The notes under the pieces are model-generated. The model was not told the origin of the DNA and did no database searches. It saw only the letters and a list, made by a program, of their open reading frames with translations. A stretch of 64,000 nt of DNA, taken from contig JANQSE010000002.1 of the NCBI GenBank assembly GCA_028284195.1, positions 496,001 through 560,000 of the forward strand, written 5' to 3'. This DNA is from Balneola sp. (lineage in GTDB: Bacteria > Bacteroidota > Rhodothermia > Balneolales > Balneolaceae). Below are positions 2 through 51,481 of the stretch, piece by piece; the first letter of the stretch is position 1; each line of letters begins with the position of its first letter. A program made the translations under genes and the position numbers.

Positions 2-1090
2 GATCTTAAGAAACAGTATATTTCAATTAAAACAGAAATTGATGAGGCAATCTCAAGTGTGCTTGAAGAGACTTCCTTCATTGGGGGGGGGCATGTAAAC
101 GAATTTAACTTAGCATTTGCCAAGGATTATGGAGTGAAACATTGTATCGGCGTGGCCAATGGAACTGATGCAATTTATATTGTTTTAAAAATGCTAGGAA
201 TAGGTAGTGGAGACGAGGTTATTACAGTTGCAAATAGTTGGATATCTACCTCGGAAACAATTTCACAATGTGGTGCTAAACCTATTTTTGTGGATATAGA
301 AGAAGATTTTTATACCATAGATGTCAATAAAATAGAAGCTGCTATTACTAATAGAACAAAAGCGGTCATTCCAGTACATATATTTGGTCATCCTGCTGAT
401 TTAGATTCTATAGTAAAACTATGTGAAAAACATGATTTATATTTGATTGAGGATAGTGCTCAAGCTCATTATGCTGAGTATAAGGGACAAAGAATAGGTA
501 CTTTTGGTGATGCAGCTACTTTTAGCTTTTACCCTGGTAAAAATTTGGGTGCCTATGGAGATGCCGGATGTGTTGTGACCAATAATGATGCTCTAGCCGA
601 AAAGTGTAAAATGTTTGCTAATCATGGAGCATTAGTAAAACATAATCATTTAATGGAGGGAATAAACAGTAGATTGGATGGTTTACAAGCGGCTATTTTA
701 AAGGCAAAATTGCCATTTATACATGACTGGACTCATAAAAGAAGAGAAATTGCCAGAGAATATGACGAACATCTTAGTGGAATAAACGAAGTCGTTTATC
801 CTAAAGTAGCTGATTATGCAAGTCATGTGTTTCACTTGTACGTTATTAGAGCTAAACAAAGGGATCGGTTAAAACAATATTTAAATGAAAAAGGTATCTC
901 TACTGCTATACATTATCCGACACCTCTACCTTTATTAACTGCATATAAATCAAGAGGTTTTCGAGAAGAACATTTTCCAGTATCTTCTCGATATAGAGAT
1001 GAAATTCTTTCTCTACCTATATATCCGGAATTAGGCTTAGATAAAGTAGAATACATTTCGAATACTATAAGAGAATTTTATATTGCCTAG
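2..1090 (+). CDS. DegT/DnrJ/EryC1/StrS-family PLP aminotransferase (5' truncated by window edge)
   Basis: The open frame continues to the left window edge (DLKKQYISIKTEIDEAISSVLEETSFIGGG...). Motifs include GVANGTDAI, EDSAQAHYAEYKGQRIGTFGDAATFSFYPGKNLGAYGDAG. The listed GTG at 59 is internal. Confidence 0.93.
   Translation, partial: DLKKQYISIKTEIDEAISSVLEETSFIGGGHVNEFNLAFAKDYGVKHCIGVANGTDAIYIVLKMLGIGSGDEVITVANSWISTSETISQCGAKPIFVDIEEDFYTIDVNKIEAAITNRTKAVIPVHIFGHPADLDSIVKLCEKHDLYLIEDSAQAHYAEYKGQRIGTFGDAATFSFYPGKNLGAYGDAGCVVTNNDALAEKCKMFANHGALVKHNHLMEGINSRLDGLQAAILKAKLPFIHDWTHKRREIAREYDEHLSGINEVVYPKVADYASHVFHLYVIRAKQRDRLKQYLNEKGISTAIHYPTPLPLLTAYKSRGFREEHFPVSSRYRDEILSLPIYPELGLDKVEYISNTIREFYIA
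83..91. repeat. 9-nt G homopolymer in the DegT aminotransferase coding sequence
   Basis: ttcattGGGGGGGGGcatgta; encodes FIGGGHV. Confidence 0.95.
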
Positions 1091-7930: not shown

Positions 7931-8962
7931 ATGAACAGAGTTAAGTTTTCGGTATTAGGGTTCGGACGAATAGGTCAAAGACATGCAAAAATTATACATG
8001 AATATCCAGATTCTGATCTGATTTCAATAGTTGATACCAATCCTGAACATTTACTTGAATCAGATACTTTGGGACTTCACAAAGAACTTTTCATGTTTTC
8101 ATGTATCAAAGATTTTCTTTTGAAGGATCAGAATCAGACAGATATTGTTTCAATAGCAACACCAAATGGTTTCCATACCGATTATGCCATTCAGTTAATG
8201 AAGGCCGGCTATCATGTGCTTATTGAAAAACCAATGGGTCTGTCCTCTGTTTCATGCGAGGAGGTGCTATCGACAATGATTGAAACCGGAAAGCAGGCTT
8301 TTGTAGTAAAGCAGAACAGATACAGCCCTCCATCGCTATGGCTAAAAAATATTGTTGATAATAAGATTATTGGAGACATACTAATGGTTCAGACCAATTG
8401 CTATTGGAATAGAGACGAACGCTATTATTCAACCAGTGAGTGGAGAGGAACAAGAGATTTAGATGGTGGAGCTTTGTTTACGCAGTTCAGTCATTTTGTG
8501 GATTTGTTATATTGGGTGTTTGGGGATATACAGAACGTAACTGCGAGCGTGAAAAATTTTACCCATCCAAATTTAAAAGACTTTGATGATTCAGGGTTTG
8601 CCCAATTCGAGTTTATTAAAGGCGGCATTGGCAGTTTAAATTATTCCACGTCCTGCTGGGGGCAAAATATGGAGAGCAGTATTACGGTAATCGGAACAAA
8701 AGGAAGTGTTAAAGTTGGCGGACAGTACATGAATGAGATTGAGTATTGCCATATAGAAGATTACAAAATGCCTGAACTGCCTGAAACGAATCCACCCAAT
8801 GATTACGGGCCATATAAAGGAAGCGCGGCCAATCATCATTATGTAATTGAAAATGTAGTAAATGCACTGAGTGGGAATGAATCGACTACAACCAATGCTT
8901 TTGAAGGGATGAAAGTAGTAGGTTTTATTGAGAAGATTTACAGAGCAGCAGCTTTTATTTAA
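7931..8962 (+). CDS. Gfo/Idh/MocA-family oxidoreductase (WbpB-like)
   Basis: KFSVLGFGRIGQRHAKII, ATPNGFHTDYAIQLMKAGYHVLIEKPMGLS, GGALFTQFSHFVDLLYW. Confidence 0.9.
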   Translation: MNRVKFSVLGFGRIGQRHAKIIHEYPDSDLISIVDTNPEHLLESDTLGLHKELFMFSCIKDFLLKDQNQTDIVSIATPNGFHTDYAIQLMKAGYHVLIEKPMGLSSVSCEEVLSTMIETGKQAFVVKQNRYSPPSLWLKNIVDNKIIGDILMVQTNCYWNRDERYYSTSEWRGTRDLDGGALFTQFSHFVDLLYWVFGDIQNVTASVKNFTHPNLKDFDDSGFAQFEFIKGGIGSLNYSTSCWGQNMESSITVIGTKGSVKVGGQYMNEIEYCHIEDYKMPELPETNPPNDYGPYKGSAANHHYVIENVVNALSGNESTTTNAFEGMKVVGFIEKIYRAAAFI

Positions 8963-42800: not shown

Positions 42801-43189
42801 TCGTGGGTGATTACGTTTCGAAGCCAATTATGAGTTCCGCGCAATGGTGTATCTAAAGCTGGCAGCCAGATATCAATTTTGTTATCAAAAAAATAAGCGG
42901 CTCCATTTGAATAATCATCCCGGTCTTTAAGAACAATGCTTACCTTTTGATCGGGTTCGTGTTGGTATAATTTAGTGATGGGTGCATAGATCTCCTCAGC
43001 TACGCGTGACGTTACCTTTGCCGAACGGCTGTTACCTTCTTGAAAATGAACAAGGAAGTGATCACTTTCTATAGTAAACCATTTCAGATGATTGTGAGGA
43101 TGATCGTAAAAAAGCGGGCTGGTTTGTGCAAATATACCAGTGGTTATTAAGTAAAAGAAAGCAGTTACAAAAAACAGGGCTCTTTTCAT
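39842..43189 (-). CDS. Gluzincin-like peptidase domain + TolB/WD40-like propeller + C-terminal beta-barrel
   Basis: HEFTHIVQIQ with downstream AEGTAQY; SPDGKQIAYS / SPDGKTVYFS repeats; C-terminal barrel-like strands ending FHFGLTFDFELL. Confidence 0.8.
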   Translation of the reverse strand: MKRALFFVTAFFYLITTGIFAQTSPLFYDHPHNHLKWFTIESDHFLVHFQEGNSRSAKVTSRVAEEIYAPITKLYQHEPDQKVSIVLKDRDDYSNGAAYFFDNKIDIWLPALDTPLRGTHNWLRNVITHEFTHIVQIQKAMKRKRKFPVSYIQWLTYENVRRPDVLYGFPNGIATLPFASINVPAWLAEGTAQYQRQGLLYDSWDTHRDMILRTRILSDTYFTLEEMGTFSSKTSIERETVYNQGFAFVIYLVNEFGEDILREITSALATKGTYNVAKAIEIATGIPGDEVFKNWINERKKFYTNATADIHQTKSEYIEQNGFFNFYPKISPNSKSVAYLSNKARDHSQVSLYIKSVIGEKEIAMVSNHLFDQSQQHALATEAPAIAFISTTFSFSPDGKQIAYSVNKSTKYGESYRDIFVYDIESEKHERLTNSKRIESPIWSPDGAVIAAIQYSKGTQNLVLLNPETKKINPITNYRAGETIYTPSWSPDGKTVYFSYADLGNRSIKKIDIQTKKISNVLSDTFIDMRDPVISANGKHIYYSSDKDGIFNIYRYHLKQGSSNKITNVLGGAFMPFVTSNGTLYYSEYEADGYKIKKVPSIQPVSKSGSYAPEYKEAENKTTDASADFSRLNNFDDRELSAFTSSEYAIADTGSFNFSMQTVHATKEYSYKEYDDTFTKFSFFPVLRFDNYSKLNGNNGTLLKNGKLGKLGENLLRDIKPGVYFASRDVLDRLNIFGGAMFGIASLPAENAGGFFKPDRLLELDRDLFLIAEYRGLPFIKRSWSPTVSLELYNLRRNVKDGLQIEEFPCTSCVEKDTANVDIAYQIWEANLFLRSKLSRRSLLELGVGYSPYRIETDNFFSTELQTLISGSSSEYFKGTTLSAAYTVDYYNFTTDADIAPIGLKGYVRYQYQPGKLLEEYEIKDGALVPIFKTSRNHSTELHARYGFKLKSGQAFQARARGFAYFNNPNDSFYTDYIGGFLGMRSYPYFALGGDKTVFTSLSYFAPIAKKITKQVGPYTLDKLYARIFFEAGNAWNSPFGTDNKLKTGIGTELRLAMNGYYLFPLKLFVSASYGFNKFQLTLPEEFVTGSGNKTVTYGRELLFHFGLTFDFELL

Positions 43190-46100
43190 TAATGTACCAC
43201 CGCTATTTTAATCAATTTGGAATCCGAACGGTCATTAACGGTAGCTTTTACCATTGCAAAATAAGCACCACTTCCCCAACGGGAGGTGTTTAAAAGAATT
43301 TCTTCCGGCGTTCCGCCATTTGCACGAATTGAGTTTTTATACACCAGGTTTCCACTTAGGTCAATAATGTTAATTTCTACTTGCCCCTGATCTTTTAATT
43401 GAAACCGAATGTATGTTTCTTCATCTGCCGGATTTGGCCAGTTGTATGTTTCTCTTTTATTGAGAACAGAAAATGAGTTGGTCTTATCATCAATAACAGC
43501 GTTTATATGGGCAGAAACTTTGTTGTAAGAATTTGCTCCGTACCTTGAAGGCCAGTCTGCAGAAGTAAAGTCAATGAACCTCCAGGCTTTAACATCTCCT
43601 GCATGGCTTGCAGCATATAACGTATTATCCAAGAAAAAAGGGTGAATTGGCTGGATGTTTTTACCGGTAACTTCCCCAACATAAAGAGGGAATCCTTCTA
43701 AGGGTTTTCCATCCTTACTATAGCCAAAGATATTGATAGAAAAATTGTCCTGACCTACCACCAGGATTTCCTGAATATTATCTCCCGTTATATCAGCCAG
43801 TAAGGGAGTTCCGATAAAGTTTACGTTTTCAGGAGCAAGAACAGGCATATTAGCTAATAGTGCTCCATTCCGGTTATAGCCTGTTAACTCATTGTTGATT
43901 TTATCAATCCGGAACATCTCAAGCTCTTTGCTGAAAGCAACCCATTCAGCAGCATGCTCATTAAAAAGTACAGTAAATGGATCTGTTTTTTGGGGGTCTG
44001 CAAGAATAAAGGCATTATCTTCAAAAATGTAGTACAGGTTTTCAGCCTCGCCTTTTATAACCCCTGCATAAATTCGGTTACTGGATGCTGAAAGGAAGTC
44101 TAAAATCGAGCTACCTGAAAATGAAATGTTCTGTCCATTTACAAAAGCAGCAGAGTTATTAACGATCTCTGTTCTGAAATCAGATGAGTTCTGCTTTGTT
44201 GAAATGGCACCGGTAGCAGGGTTAATAGCGAGAGTAGTAAAATCCAGAAATAGACTGTCTCCGTTTTGTGAACTCAGAAACGCATTGTTAGCTGTAGTAT
44301 CAACCTGCCATATTTGATCGAAGGATTCTGTACCGGAGTTCCAATCGTAGGCGGTAACCAGAAAGTTGCCCGAAGATACTGGGTTTGTACCGGTAATCAA
44401 TCTTCCATCCAGGTATGGTTGTTGATTGCTCGAATTTTGAATTTCAAATAACTGCGGAAGGTTATCATTTAGGCGGATCACAGAAACATTGGTATTGCCG
44501 GGAACTACTACAAATGTATCGCTGGCTGATGTGAAACTCCCGATAGAAAGGGGATAGAAAGAATGATAATTATTGGTTGCAGTAAAAAATTGAGCGGAAT
44601 CAACTTGTATATTTAATGTTTGCTCATACCCAAGATCAAGCTCCTCAAAAGCTTCGATTTTAAAAGAAGCGGTTGGTTGGTTATCAGAAAAATCATAGAA
44701 CCGTACTAATGACCTTGCTCCGGAGTTGCTGTTGGTATTCGGAAAAGTTTCAGGGGTAAACTGGTTTTGGTACAGTTGGATGGTATTTCCCTGAGTAATT
44801 ACACGAAAGTTATTTCTACTCCACCAAAAGTCGAAAGGGGAACCAAAAGCAGCGCTGTTATCCAGCGCACCTTCAATGGGTTTGCCAATATCTTGTGAAC
44901 CATCTGCTTCTTCCAGATCAATGCCCCGGCGTAAATCATCACTGTTAACGCCTTTTCCAAAGCTCATTTTTTGATTTATCACAGCTTCATCTATATGCCA
45001 GATCAAGACTCCTCCATTTAGAAGTCTGTCATCATCGGTTCCTTTAGTATTATCTTCACCGATATCTAACCCGCCGGGAAGGCTCCAATCAAACTCACTT
45101 ACGTTTATCAATACTCCTTTTTCAAAGAGATTATCAAAACCGGTTTCCTGAAAAACAAAGGTGTCATTGTCGTTAGTAAATGTTTGCTGAACTTCGCTGC
45201 CATCGTTTTTACGGATGGTAAGAGTTACTCCATCGTTGCCGATATTCCGGTGCCGGTTTTCGATCAAAAAGTATTCGGAAGAGGAAAGATTGAATTGCGC
45301 AATGTTATTTTGATCGGCTATGCCGGATGCGGCTAGGTTTATATCGCCAGTGGTTTCGGTTGTTATTTGAAATGGAGTTACCCAGTTAAGAAATATTTTT
45401 TCCCATGCAGAGGGCTCGGGAGGGAATAATCCATTGTAAGCAAAAATGCTGGCTCCATCCATCAACCCAAAACGTCCAATTCCCGATTCGCCGGTTTCAG
45501 TATTAAAAAGATCGGGCAAACCCAGGTAACTGCCAATAGAAGCACATAACAACCCATTTATTGAAAGCGGCAGCACAAATTCATTTTCCTGGACGTCCAG
45601 CCCCCGGCGCGATTCTGTTCTGGGAATAATTAAAGAATTGGTAATTCTGAAGGTGCCGTTGTTTACCGAAATTCCATCAAATCCCGGGTCATCTAAAAGT
45701 TCAGCGAGATTATTTTTCCTTAGTGTGATTGAAGGAATATCCTGCGGAGTGATGTCAAGATTTGTTCCAATTAGCTCAATATCGCGGCCTACTCCGGCAT
45801 GGAAAATAATAAAAGCAGTAGAATCAGGGTCTAGCCCTGTTGCGTCAAAACCGCCGTTTTCTTCCACCTTATTCCACGAATCAACAATAAAATTTGCAAG
45901 CTTTTCATTGGTAAAGGTTTTGCCGGTAGGGGAATACTCTTCCATTTTTTTATTGAGGCGATAAACTTGTGGGAGCACGCGATAGTTTATAGTGAATTGG
46001 TTGTCAGAAGATTGTTCAAAATAGTTTTTGGCAAACTCCAGATGTGCTTCGAAATAAGATTGGTTATGGGGTATAGGGTCAATATTGGTAGGATTGTTTT

Positions 46101-46356
46101 CGAGATAGGGTAATCCGCCTTCAAATACTCCTGTACCTGAAGTCAATTCATTTGAATCAGGTTGAAACTCCACCATAATGGCAAGCACTTGCAAAGTACC
46201 AATGGCTGGTACTGCAGAGCTCTGTAATGAGTTTTTAGCAATGGCGTGTGTTCTTTTAAGCTCTACTTTGGGCTGACCCGAAAGCGACAACTGAAAAAAA
46301 AAGAGCATGCCAAATATTAACATGCTCTCGCTAAAAAATGAGTGTTTAACCCGCAT
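43189..46356 (-). CDS. M6-like (immune inhibitor A-like) secreted protein with T9SS type-A sorting domain; zinc motif apparently lost
   Basis: YLGLPDLFNTETGESGIGRFGLMDGASIFAYNG...PSAWEKIFLNW and GGVLIWHIDEAVIN are M6-like; ends with WPNPADEETYIRFQL...GNLVYK...GAYFAMVKATVNDRSDSKLIKIAVVH. Confidence 0.85.
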   Translation of the reverse strand: MRVKHSFFSESMLIFGMLFFFQLSLSGQPKVELKRTHAIAKNSLQSSAVPAIGTLQVLAIMVEFQPDSNELTSGTGVFEGGLPYLENNPTNIDPIPHNQSYFEAHLEFAKNYFEQSSDNQFTINYRVLPQVYRLNKKMEEYSPTGKTFTNEKLANFIVDSWNKVEENGGFDATGLDPDSTAFIIFHAGVGRDIELIGTNLDITPQDIPSITLRKNNLAELLDDPGFDGISVNNGTFRITNSLIIPRTESRRGLDVQENEFVLPLSINGLLCASIGSYLGLPDLFNTETGESGIGRFGLMDGASIFAYNGLFPPEPSAWEKIFLNWVTPFQITTETTGDINLAASGIADQNNIAQFNLSSSEYFLIENRHRNIGNDGVTLTIRKNDGSEVQQTFTNDNDTFVFQETGFDNLFEKGVLINVSEFDWSLPGGLDIGEDNTKGTDDDRLLNGGVLIWHIDEAVINQKMSFGKGVNSDDLRRGIDLEEADGSQDIGKPIEGALDNSAAFGSPFDFWWSRNNFRVITQGNTIQLYQNQFTPETFPNTNSNSGARSLVRFYDFSDNQPTASFKIEAFEELDLGYEQTLNIQVDSAQFFTATNNYHSFYPLSIGSFTSASDTFVVVPGNTNVSVIRLNDNLPQLFEIQNSSNQQPYLDGRLITGTNPVSSGNFLVTAYDWNSGTESFDQIWQVDTTANNAFLSSQNGDSLFLDFTTLAINPATGAISTKQNSSDFRTEIVNNSAAFVNGQNISFSGSSILDFLSASSNRIYAGVIKGEAENLYYIFEDNAFILADPQKTDPFTVLFNEHAAEWVAFSKELEMFRIDKINNELTGYNRNGALLANMPVLAPENVNFIGTPLLADITGDNIQEILVVGQDNFSINIFGYSKDGKPLEGFPLYVGEVTGKNIQPIHPFFLDNTLYAASHAGDVKAWRFIDFTSADWPSRYGANSYNKVSAHINAVIDDKTNSFSVLNKRETYNWPNPADEETYIRFQLKDQGQVEINIIDLSGNLVYKNSIRANGGTPEEILLNTSRWGSGAYFAMVKATVNDRSDSKLIKIAVVH
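46294..46328 (-). terminator. Terminator-like hairpin + T9 tract inside the M6-like CDS
   Basis: Minus strand AGAGCATG-TTAATATTTGG-CATGCTCT followed by T tract (A9 on + strand at 46294-46302). Confidence 0.5.
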
Positions 46357-46361
46357 AAAGT

Positions 46362-47501
46362 TTAATAGTTCAGCAGAATACTAAATCTCAATGTGTTTGC
46401 GAGCGGGTGGTCAGATTCCAGGGTTTTTATGTAACTGAAATCGACTCCAAATTGATTTAATCTGATTCCGGCTCCAAAGGTAATGTATTCTCTGTCACCA
46501 TTTTTAGGGTCTTCATAATAGTATCCACCGCGTATGGCAAATTGTTTTCTGTACCAGTATTCCATACCTGCACCAATCATAAATTGCTGGAGTAAACTTA
46601 CATTGGTTCGCTGCCCGGTATTTGGATCGAGGGGCCTGTACGTATCCCAGGATTTTATAAGTGCTCTTAATGGATTTACTGCTTTAAATTCAAAAGTAGT
46701 GTCACTAGTAGCGGTTACTTCCTGTCGTGCCATCACTTTCGAAATATCTACAGCAAGTGTTAACTCGTTAGTTCTTTCTTCATCCAACCCAATATTTATG
46801 GCAGGCCCAAATCGTAGAACTGTAGGAATAGGGTCTTTCTGAGCGTTGTCAGAATATTGAATTCCAGGCCCAAGGTTAGAAAGGTTGATCCCAAAACTTG
46901 CCACTGCATCAGAGGGGCCAAAATCAAATGGGTTTGATTTGTAAAGCATAGCTAGGTCAACCCCAACGCTGGAACCGGGGTTTACTTTTTGGCCTGATAT
47001 ACTTGTGCCGTTTGCAAGGCTTGAGTAAATCAAACGAAGACCCCCGCCTACCGCAAGGTTTGCATTTACTTCGGTGCCATAAGAAAATCCCAGTGATAAT
47101 TCGTAACTGTTAAACCTAGAAATAACATCTGGGGTTTCTCCTGTTTCTGCCTGCTCTCCTAAGTTAAGGTAAGTAATATGGCCGCCAACCGTACCGATGC
47201 CTTCTATATACTGTTTAACTACCACATAATCGTAGAAGAGATCGCTAACCCCAAAGTTAGCCAGCCAGTTTGAGTGTGTGATACTTGCTTGATTGTCGCG
47301 CTGGAATGCAAGCCCGGCCGGATTCCAAAACAAAGCAGCAGCATTATCTGCTATAGCTACTCCGGTATTTCCCATGCCGGCTCCTCGGGAATCAGGTTCT
47401 ATTTGCAAAAATGGAACTCCAGTAATACCAACCTGGGCGTTTATGGTTAAAGGCAAGAGCAAAATTAAATTTGCCAGAATTAAAATGTATGTCTTTTTCA
47501 T
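46362..47501 (-). CDS. porV: Type IX secretion outer-membrane protein PorV
   Basis: PFLQIEPDSRGAGMGNTGVAIADNAAALFWNPAGLAF; adjacent to PorU. Confidence 0.9.
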   Translation of the reverse strand: MKKTYILILANLILLLPLTINAQVGITGVPFLQIEPDSRGAGMGNTGVAIADNAAALFWNPAGLAFQRDNQASITHSNWLANFGVSDLFYDYVVVKQYIEGIGTVGGHITYLNLGEQAETGETPDVISRFNSYELSLGFSYGTEVNANLAVGGGLRLIYSSLANGTSISGQKVNPGSSVGVDLAMLYKSNPFDFGPSDAVASFGINLSNLGPGIQYSDNAQKDPIPTVLRFGPAINIGLDEERTNELTLAVDISKVMARQEVTATSDTTFEFKAVNPLRALIKSWDTYRPLDPNTGQRTNVSLLQQFMIGAGMEYWYRKQFAIRGGYYYEDPKNGDREYITFGAGIRLNQFGVDFSYIKTLESDHPLANTLRFSILLNY

Positions 47502-47557: not shown

Positions 47558-50500
47558 CTATCTAATGATTACGAGCTTTTCGATTTTTTCGATTGATTGT
47601 CTTCCTTCTGGGGTATCTGTTGCAACCCGAAGCACATAAATATAAGTACCGTTACCCAGGCGATCATTATCCCTGTCACGGCCATTCCATGGAATATTGG
47701 CATAAGAACTAGATGTAATAAGTGATTCTTGCTTGATGTGTTGTACAGGTTTTCCGCTTAGCGTGTAAATTTTGATTGATACATCTAATGGATTACCCGG
47801 CTGATTATGTTCGAATGAGAATTGAGTTTTATTGTTCATTGGATTAGGATAATTATATACACTCCTAATCAGCAGCTCATTCTGGGGTGCTACCTCGAAA
47901 AAGATTTCTTCTTCATTAGGATTGTTATGCACATCCCAGGCCCGAACTTTCAGCGTGTAACTTCCCTCCGGAAGCTGATCCAGAGGAAACTCGATACGCC
48001 CTCCAGTAAAATCATTTAAGTTGCCCTCATAAAATTCATTGAGGATAAATGTTTGTTGTGGTTTTGTATCGATTGTAGCAATTATTTCATGTCCTACTCC
48101 TGTTCCTGTAGTGTTTATTCCTGAATTATCTTGTAGTTCAACGATCAAAGTTGGTGAGTCGCTAACCAAATTTCCGTTTACAAACTTTTCGTCGTTTAAG
48201 AAAACATTTAGTGAAGGCCCTGAGCCATCATTAACAGCCGATGGGTTTACTCCGTTAAAAGTAATACCGGTGAAAGTGCCTCCGGCATATTCATTATCTC
48301 CGTTGGTGTATAAAACTATCCTTCCATTTTCATCAGAGTTTCCAATATCTTTTGGAACAACGAAAATCTGGTTAAATGCACCATTTTGTACAGATGCTTT
48401 TCCTTTAAAGAGCAGATCGGATTCAACGGTATATGTGCAGTTGCCATTTAGTACGCATGTCCAATCTCTTTCCGGCAGGCTTACTGAACGTTTGGCATCA
48501 AAAACAGAAATTGTGGTTTCTCCGGAGAAAGCATTATCAATATTACCTGCCGCATTCTCTATTCGCCCCGTAATTGTTATTTGATCTAATGCCCGAATAG
48601 TTAATGTAGTATCTTTATTGAGTACTTCTACACCGTTAATTGATGAGATAACGGCCTTTCTTGACGGAAGTTTAAAAATTGTAGCAGGATCACCTAGTAA
48701 AACAAATTTTTTGTTATTGGTAGATGAACCTATAGGTGAACTGCTACTTCCCACCAATGAGTTTTTTGTTTCTCTCATGATGTCGCCTAATCGCTTAGGT
48801 GAACCATCAGCATTTCTTTCTGCCATTCGCTGAGACAGGGCTATGTTCAGTCCAAAATTGTTATTGGCACTAATGTTGGAACTGGTATAAACAACTCTTG
48901 TTGTAGTAAATGCAGCAATGGCTCCGCCGTTTGAGGCGGTTACAAATCGCTCCGCTCCTGATTGGTCACTGGTATCATCGTAGCGTCCAAACTGGCAGGT
49001 AGCAGTAACCAATACACAAAGCCTACTTTTATTGGTGAAGTTAGTGATATACTGCGATAGAAAGAGCTCCTCATCGGAAAGAGTTTGCTCGTTACCATGT
49101 CCAGAGTAATTTAGAACAAGGGTTCCGTTATTTACTGAACTAATAAAATCGTTTGTAGCTTCTGGGATTTGTCGCCCGGCTCCGGTAATTTCTTCCGGAT
49201 AAGAGAATGCATAGATTTTTTTAATTCGGATTCCTGGTTCATTTACGTTCATCATCTCTGCTGATACATCTGCGTTTATAGTATGCAGATCCCGGTTTCG
49301 CAAAGGCTCAGGAAAATCGTCATCTGCTGCAAAGGTGAACAAGTTCTGCCAATCTCCCGCATTGGCGTCATTTTCATAGCGTTTTATTTTTTCTACAAAA
49401 TTAAAGCCTTCGGTGCGGGTTTGGGCAATAATTCTTCCAACTCCAATATCAATAAGGAAAGAAGCGGATGTATTACCGCCTCCAAAGTCTCCCTCAGATT
49501 CGTCCATATATCCGAAGTAATCATCTGTTCCAAACGACCCCCCCCCCCCGCCTGTAGCTCTTACAGTTGATTGCGTACTTTGATAAGTAAGTACATGATT
49601 GATTAAAGCATTTGGTACAATATTTTTTGTGTCGTAAGAAGTATCTCCAAAAAGTAGCAGGTAAGATGGAGGGTTTTCACCATCGGCAATAGCTCTGTCA
49701 TAAAGAAATTTCAGGTAATCGCGAATCGCTGTTGGATCTTTAACACCACCTGAAAACTCATTAAGAATTTGATCTTGGGTAACCAATACCGAAGAAAGTC
49801 CCTGTGATTCTCTGTAATTAACCAACTCTCTGGCAGGATCCAATAACGCTTCAGAGGCAACGACTACATACTCAGGATATTCGTTAATTCCCCTTAGATT
49901 TTGATTGGGGATTTGAGTTCCGGCATTGGGAGCTACGAGGTTAGTTTGGGCAATAATTTGTCTGCCATCATTTTGGAAATAGTCGAGGTTAAAATCAGAA
50001 CTGTTGGATGAGACCTGGAGCCTGATTGGAGAAACAGGGTTGGTTACATCTAACACATAGGGAGCTGAAGAAAAGTTTTGAAGACGGAAAGTAACTTCAG
50101 TAACTGGGTCGTTGTCGTTTTCTGTGTAGAAAAACAATCGCTCATTTTCTGCTGAGAGGGAACGGTTAAATGTAAGCCTTAACCAATCGACAAAAGCAAC
50201 ACTGTTTTGTTGGCGATGGGTTACTCTGGCAGTTAAATCAAAAGTATTGTTATCAGGACTTACTGTTACTGTGTTTGTGAAATTATAGGCAACAGCTGCA
50301 GGCCCTTCGTTTCCGTTATATCCTCTTGAGCTACTAGTTGAAGAAAGGCTGCCCATTGTTTGATTGGCTACATCTGTACCGTTTAAGTTTATATCAAAAG
50401 TAGTGAGTGCTTCTGAACGCGCATACATTCTCCCGGAAACAAAAACTTCTACGTTTGATCCTAAATTTGGCAAAGTATCTTTTAGCACCGATATAATACT

Positions 50501-51481
50501 ATTGCTTTGTGAAGAAGGTATTTGCTGCCCCAGCCAAAAACGCCCCGACTTGAACCTATCTTCTGGTTTAACCAGTTCGTCATCTTTCCATATAAAATCG
50601 GTGAAGGTAGTTACGGTTGCAGTAGGATTTAAGCCCGTATTCGCAGAGGAAAGCCTCATACCATTTTGCGAACCAACAGTCAGAAATATATAATTAAGAT
50701 CAGAATAAGGATGGACGCTATGTTGAAATATTTGCCCATTTCGAAATGTTCTATGTGGACTGTTGCCATAAAAGATTATACGATCTTGTACATCGAAAGA
50801 ACCATCAGATTCTCCTTCTACAATAATTGGTATTTGTGAAAAAGCAGGGCGGGCGGCACTGTTTAATTCCGGAAGTTGATATCCATCGGTTCCCCATAAC
50901 TGAATATTTCTTGGGTCAATCGAAGAGATATTAATTCCTAGACTGGATAAGTACGCGCTATTGAGTTGGTATATTTGATTACCTGAAATTGGGATCTTAT
51001 ACCAGATTCCTGAAGCAAGGGGGGAATCAGTAAATATATTTGTACTTGTTTTTGACTTAATCAGAGCGCTATTTCTTTTGTAAACTCTGAATCGGAGTTT
51101 AGTAGTAACTATGGTTCCTATATCTGAATGCCTTGCTCTGTGTATTAAAACAGGTACGTATTCCTGATTCTTAAAAATACCGGATGGCAATAGCTGAACA
51201 ACACTTACTGAATCAGATGAAATGAGCAAAGCCTTTTGTGTTTCTTCATCTAGCATTCGATAAGAATTACTTGTGTTCTGCTCCAGGATCTTAATAGCAG
51301 GCTGTCCATTTACAACCGGAACCAGCATTTGGTGTGGAGGAAGTACAGCATGATCATCATTTACCAATTCATAATCAGTAAATGATTCTGTTTCTGTTGT
51401 TACTTTTATCTTCTGAGCTGTTGCTTCAGTCAGGAAAAAGAAACCAACCAATCCACAAAAAAGCAGAAGCTTGATCTTCAT
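47558..51481 (-). CDS. porU: Type IX secretion sortase PorU
   Basis: C25-like domain: YLLLFGDTSYD, GTDDYFGYMDE, GVGRI, LVLNYSGHGNEQTLSDEE (His) and VLVTATCQFGRYD (Cys); CTD-like C-terminus. Confidence 0.92.
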   Translation of the reverse strand: MKIKLLLFCGLVGFFFLTEATAQKIKVTTETESFTDYELVNDDHAVLPPHQMLVPVVNGQPAIKILEQNTSNSYRMLDEETQKALLISSDSVSVVQLLPSGIFKNQEYVPVLIHRARHSDIGTIVTTKLRFRVYKRNSALIKSKTSTNIFTDSPLASGIWYKIPISGNQIYQLNSAYLSSLGINISSIDPRNIQLWGTDGYQLPELNSAARPAFSQIPIIVEGESDGSFDVQDRIIFYGNSPHRTFRNGQIFQHSVHPYSDLNYIFLTVGSQNGMRLSSANTGLNPTATVTTFTDFIWKDDELVKPEDRFKSGRFWLGQQIPSSQSNSIISVLKDTLPNLGSNVEVFVSGRMYARSEALTTFDINLNGTDVANQTMGSLSSTSSSRGYNGNEGPAAVAYNFTNTVTVSPDNNTFDLTARVTHRQQNSVAFVDWLRLTFNRSLSAENERLFFYTENDNDPVTEVTFRLQNFSSAPYVLDVTNPVSPIRLQVSSNSSDFNLDYFQNDGRQIIAQTNLVAPNAGTQIPNQNLRGINEYPEYVVVASEALLDPARELVNYRESQGLSSVLVTQDQILNEFSGGVKDPTAIRDYLKFLYDRAIADGENPPSYLLLFGDTSYDTKNIVPNALINHVLTYQSTQSTVRATGGGGGSFGTDDYFGYMDESEGDFGGGNTSASFLIDIGVGRIIAQTRTEGFNFVEKIKRYENDANAGDWQNLFTFAADDDFPEPLRNRDLHTINADVSAEMMNVNEPGIRIKKIYAFSYPEEITGAGRQIPEATNDFISSVNNGTLVLNYSGHGNEQTLSDEELFLSQYITNFTNKSRLCVLVTATCQFGRYDDTSDQSGAERFVTASNGGAIAAFTTTRVVYTSSNISANNNFGLNIALSQRMAERNADGSPKRLGDIMRETKNSLVGSSSSPIGSSTNNKKFVLLGDPATIFKLPSRKAVISSINGVEVLNKDTTLTIRALDQITITGRIENAAGNIDNAFSGETTISVFDAKRSVSLPERDWTCVLNGNCTYTVESDLLFKGKASVQNGAFNQIFVVPKDIGNSDENGRIVLYTNGDNEYAGGTFTGITFNGVNPSAVNDGSGPSLNVFLNDEKFVNGNLVSDSPTLIVELQDNSGINTTGTGVGHEIIATIDTKPQQTFILNEFYEGNLNDFTGGRIEFPLDQLPEGSYTLKVRAWDVHNNPNEEEIFFEVAPQNELLIRSVYNYPNPMNNKTQFSFEHNQPGNPLDVSIKIYTLSGKPVQHIKQESLITSSSYANIPWNGRDRDNDRLGNGTYIYVLRVATDTPEGRQSIEKIEKLVIIR
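49538..49549. repeat. 12-nt C/G homopolymer in the porU coding sequence
   Basis: caaacgaCCCCCCCCCCCCgcctgt; encodes TGGGGGSF on the minus strand. Confidence 0.95.

Follow-up and report, generated by a model that had tools for sequence, protein, structure and literature searches.

A twelve-guanine homopolymer in the type IX sortase gene porU of Balneola: probably a species-specific accident in a tolerant linker

The gene for PorU, the sortase of the type IX secretion system (T9SS), carries in one Balneola genome an uninterrupted run of twelve guanines that, judged from sequence, we take with a probability of roughly two in three to be a species-specific, slippage-prone accident within a tolerant linker of the protein, with no sign of selection for on/off switching. 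The window, i.e. the whole stretch of 64,000 nucleotides analysed here, lies within a 697 kb contig of a genome counted at 2.68 Mb in 19 contigs. The features on which the argument depends are the following (window positions, all on the minus strand).

47558 to 51481, minus strand: porU, T9SS sortase of 1307 aa, intact as assembled, with the C25 peptidase domain at residues 538-934
49538 to 49549, minus strand: G12 homopolymer (C12 on the plus strand), porU codons 645-648, each GGG
49535 to 49552, minus strand: Gly-rich loop GGGGGS, a low-confidence loop in the structure model, with GSGGGT in five genus mates
46362 to 47501, minus strand: porV, T9SS outer-membrane protein, directly 3' of porU across a 56-base gap
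43189 to 46356, minus strand: T9SS-dependent M6-like inactivated metalloprotease with a CTD sorting domain, a cargo gene adjoining porV

The open reading frame at 47558-51481 is the sortase PorU, as far as a full-length equivalog match and conserved catalytic residues can identify it. Its product matches NF033707 over nearly its full length (1020.7 bits against a cut-off of 420, residues 155-1305) and Peptidase_C25 at 1e-92, and the predicted catalytic His795 (in SGHG) and Cys829 (in TATCQFG) are invariant across 30 aligned PorU domains of the family. In these respects, and in being followed by porV, the gene resembles known PorU sortases, of which that of Porphyromonas gingivalis (PDB 6za2) is the closest solved structure by sequence. 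By the searches made, porU is present in a single copy, and the genome holds 23 sorting-domain (CTD) matches above cut-off, representing cargo dependent on the T9SS. The signal-peptide region of the M6-like cargo gene, close to where the gene starts, holds nine A in a row on the plus strand (T9 coding; 46294-46302), and no A/T run in the window is longer.

Read directly from the window sequence, positions 49538-49549 are twelve consecutive C on the plus strand, hence G12 on the coding (minus) strand, beginning in frame 0 after a GGC codon (coding context ACA GGC GGG GGG GGG GGG TCG TTT GGA ACA GAT GAT TAC TTC GGA). The peptide encoded across the region is TGGGGGSFGTDDYFGYMDE, with His795 and Cys829 further downstream. 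An earlier note on this DNA had described the tract as an in-frame C12 upstream of the catalytic His/Cys, and this held in every detail checked. Several sequencing platforms are error-prone at long homopolymers, and an assembly or base-calling error, with the real tract interrupted or of a different length, has to be considered on that account; we regard it as improbable, since the assembled length preserves the frame and yields a loop equal in length to that of five relatives, the tract lies in the contig interior rather than at an end (545,538 of 697,401), and long G runs are otherwise not abundant in the genome. Elsewhere in the family, two genomes (G014 and G028) show a G run of 128 (L015 1501-1628) and a C run of 28 (L022 8-35) at or near contig ends, for which an artefact of sequencing or assembly is the likeliest source.

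The tract is an outlier within its own genome. G/C runs of at least seven number 31 (26 of seven, three of eight, one of nine and one of twelve), and the G12 in porU is the longest of all. Run-length extrapolation predicts about 0.0003-0.01 runs of at least twelve per genome, and a first-order Markov estimate about 0.075; a rough hand calculation from glycine codons (two Gly runs of at least four in the window x 41.9 x 0.149^4, where 14.9% is the share of GGG among the window's Gly codons) puts the figure near 0.04. With 0.0003-0.075 expected per genome, G12 is above chance length as well as long enough for mutability, and scanning many genomes should still turn up some such runs. A G/C run of at least ten occurs somewhere in 39 of 92 family genomes, and of 30 sampled G/C-run sites in the family few fall on the sense strand within long open frames. 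Next in length in this genome after the G12 is a G9 at window positions 83-91, in a DegT/DnrJ-type aminotransferase gene (FIGGGHVNEF). It was considered as a companion contingency locus and rejected; it needs no special explanation, because 0.3-1.2 runs of at least nine are predicted per genome and two relatives have FIGGN or FIGGD at this site without a run. The idea that the porU tract stems from lost mismatch repair was likewise rejected, as MutS is present and looks intact (980 bits against a cut-off of 641.7).

Among seven other species of the genus in which porU was found, five match the loop in length and read GSGGGT there, encoded by GGN AGY GGN GGN GGN ACN with mixed glycine codons (GGA/GGT/GGC), an AGY serine codon and no run, so that a five-residue Gly-rich loop is present in six of the eight genus species overall. 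The five residues are absent from two other genus members and from all other aligned PorU of the family; the Balneola protein differs from most family PorU in having them ahead of TDDYFG, and P. gingivalis PorU has a non-glycine stretch where the loop lies. In the predicted domain, a model of moderate quality (mean pLDDT 70.3), model residues 136-139, which correspond to the loop, belong to a stretch flanked by two short helices and modelled at pLDDT below 50, as would be expected of a flexible surface loop. A loop that is Gly-rich in six species and modelled as disordered could have been selected at the protein level as an all-glycine flexible linker near the active site, with the DNA homopolymer a by-product; this is highly improbable, as it leaves the use of GGG in four successive codons unexplained when GGG accounts for just 15% of the window's Gly codons.

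Maintenance of the tract across species is not apparent at the sequence level: it appears in none of the seven genus mates and nowhere else in the order and phylum genomes scanned. A pattern search for a run of at least eight G shortly before the DDYFG motif recovered no second PorU, either in 129 genomes from the order or in 395 from the phylum; the pattern demanded D-D-[YF]-F-G, and a PorU with another motif would escape it. A contig search for a conspecific assembly returned only a distant Bacteroidales relative, 31% identical. The closest relatives share 67-70% DNA identity with the gene, and third-position identity is 43-47% where the first two bases agree; relatives so distant have synonymous sites near saturation, and the absence of the run from them is therefore uninformative about tract stability within the species. 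Interrupted glycine codons in close relatives, which the earlier note had named as evidence that would speak against a switch, were found in form, and at that level of divergence they weigh little as a refutation.

When slippage is simulated in silico, a gain of one base leaves a product of 653 aa and a loss of one base a product of 695 aa, and the corresponding two-base changes give 696 aa (gain) and 652 aa (loss); all four end before His795/Cys829, and three-base changes stay in frame. The expectation that a single-base change would truncate the sortase ahead of its active site is thereby confirmed in silico, with products of 652-696 aa for one-base and two-base changes. P. gingivalis PorU no longer cleaves CTDs once its catalytic Cys690 is mutated, and secretion in that species is defective upon porU inactivation (PMC4560394). 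A premature stop in porU might also lower the expression of porV downstream.

These properties invite the reading that the tract is a contingency locus, in which reversible slippage of G12 would toggle PorU in a subpopulation of cells, and CTD cleavage and the surface anchoring of about two dozen cargo proteins along with it. In Campylobacter jejuni, poly-G tracts of at least seven are highly mutable and those of at least eight have been shown to switch expression (PMC6321876), a length that the twelve in porU exceeds. As in the poly-G loci of Campylobacter, Neisseria and Helicobacter (PMC6321876), a surface-related gene has a long poly-G in frame on its coding strand, and one or two bases gained or lost would truncate the product. 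By the searches made there is a single PorU to lose, with 23 cargo matches to be affected, and the catalytic Cys is required for CTD cleavage in P. gingivalis. Confinement to one species has parallels too, since Campylobacter has gene groups that are phase-variable in one strain only, and it is common in C. jejuni for a gene to have phase-variable homologues alongside non-variable ones (PMC6321876). We nevertheless consider a selected switch unlikely. Unlike poly-G phasomes (PMC6321876), the porU tract is conserved in no other species examined, and such tracts are depleted, not enriched, in its host genome: the 31 G/C runs of at least seven compare with about 118 expected under a first-order Markov model from the window and are rarer than chance. 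Enrichment of the genome in such tracts, which is usual though not required for contingency loci, is thus not seen. Frequent switching of the entire T9SS output would be a drastic target, and no paper joining type IX secretion, phase variation and a homopolymer, nor any report of homopolymer-driven phase variation of the T9SS, was found in the literature searched, which took in few subscription journals. Of the phase variation that had been proposed for this tract, the mechanical part stands (truncation in silico, a single porU, 23 CTD matches); the switching function itself has gained no positive support.

A wider trend of poly-G in the T9SS sorting domains of the family was considered and rejected, with two plausible cases (L019/L100 and L102) in 89 genomes. 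One comes from a different genus of the family, where a cargo gene has a G11 within its C-terminal T9SS sorting domain (L019 1501-1511, the same place as L100; G021:C1 at about 579112); the assembled upstream frame leaves the sorting domain, whose end stays open in a different frame, and phase variation, decay or assembly error could each account for this. The other is a G8 that is in frame as assembled and lies just before a T9SS sorting domain ends (L102; G087:C224 at about 7983-8016).

We favor an accidental origin of the porU tract, which would proceed as follows. The Gly-rich loop of PorU would have been gained within the genus, and synonymous drift, slippage or both, acting in a short flexible loop, may then have produced G12. 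Because its five residues are absent in most relatives, the loop is likely to be tolerant of changes in sequence and length, and given that tolerance the all-GGG form should cost little at the protein level. As assembled, the in-frame porU should yield a full-length sortase, and by the general rules of poly-G tracts frequent slippage would be expected to generate some porU-null cells, chiefly as deleterious mutants. Counting against an accident is the position of the tract, the longest G/C run of the genome lying in a surface-system gene 5' of the active site, just where a contingency tract would be expected. The relatives, at 67-70% DNA identity, are also too distant to show the tract to be recent or unmaintained.

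If the tract did act as a switch, chance slippage would turn an entire secretion pathway on and off, and the literature searched offered no precedent for stochastic control of that kind. If it does not, the case cautions against calling a contingency locus from a long homopolymer alone when this is seen in a surface-system gene of one genome.
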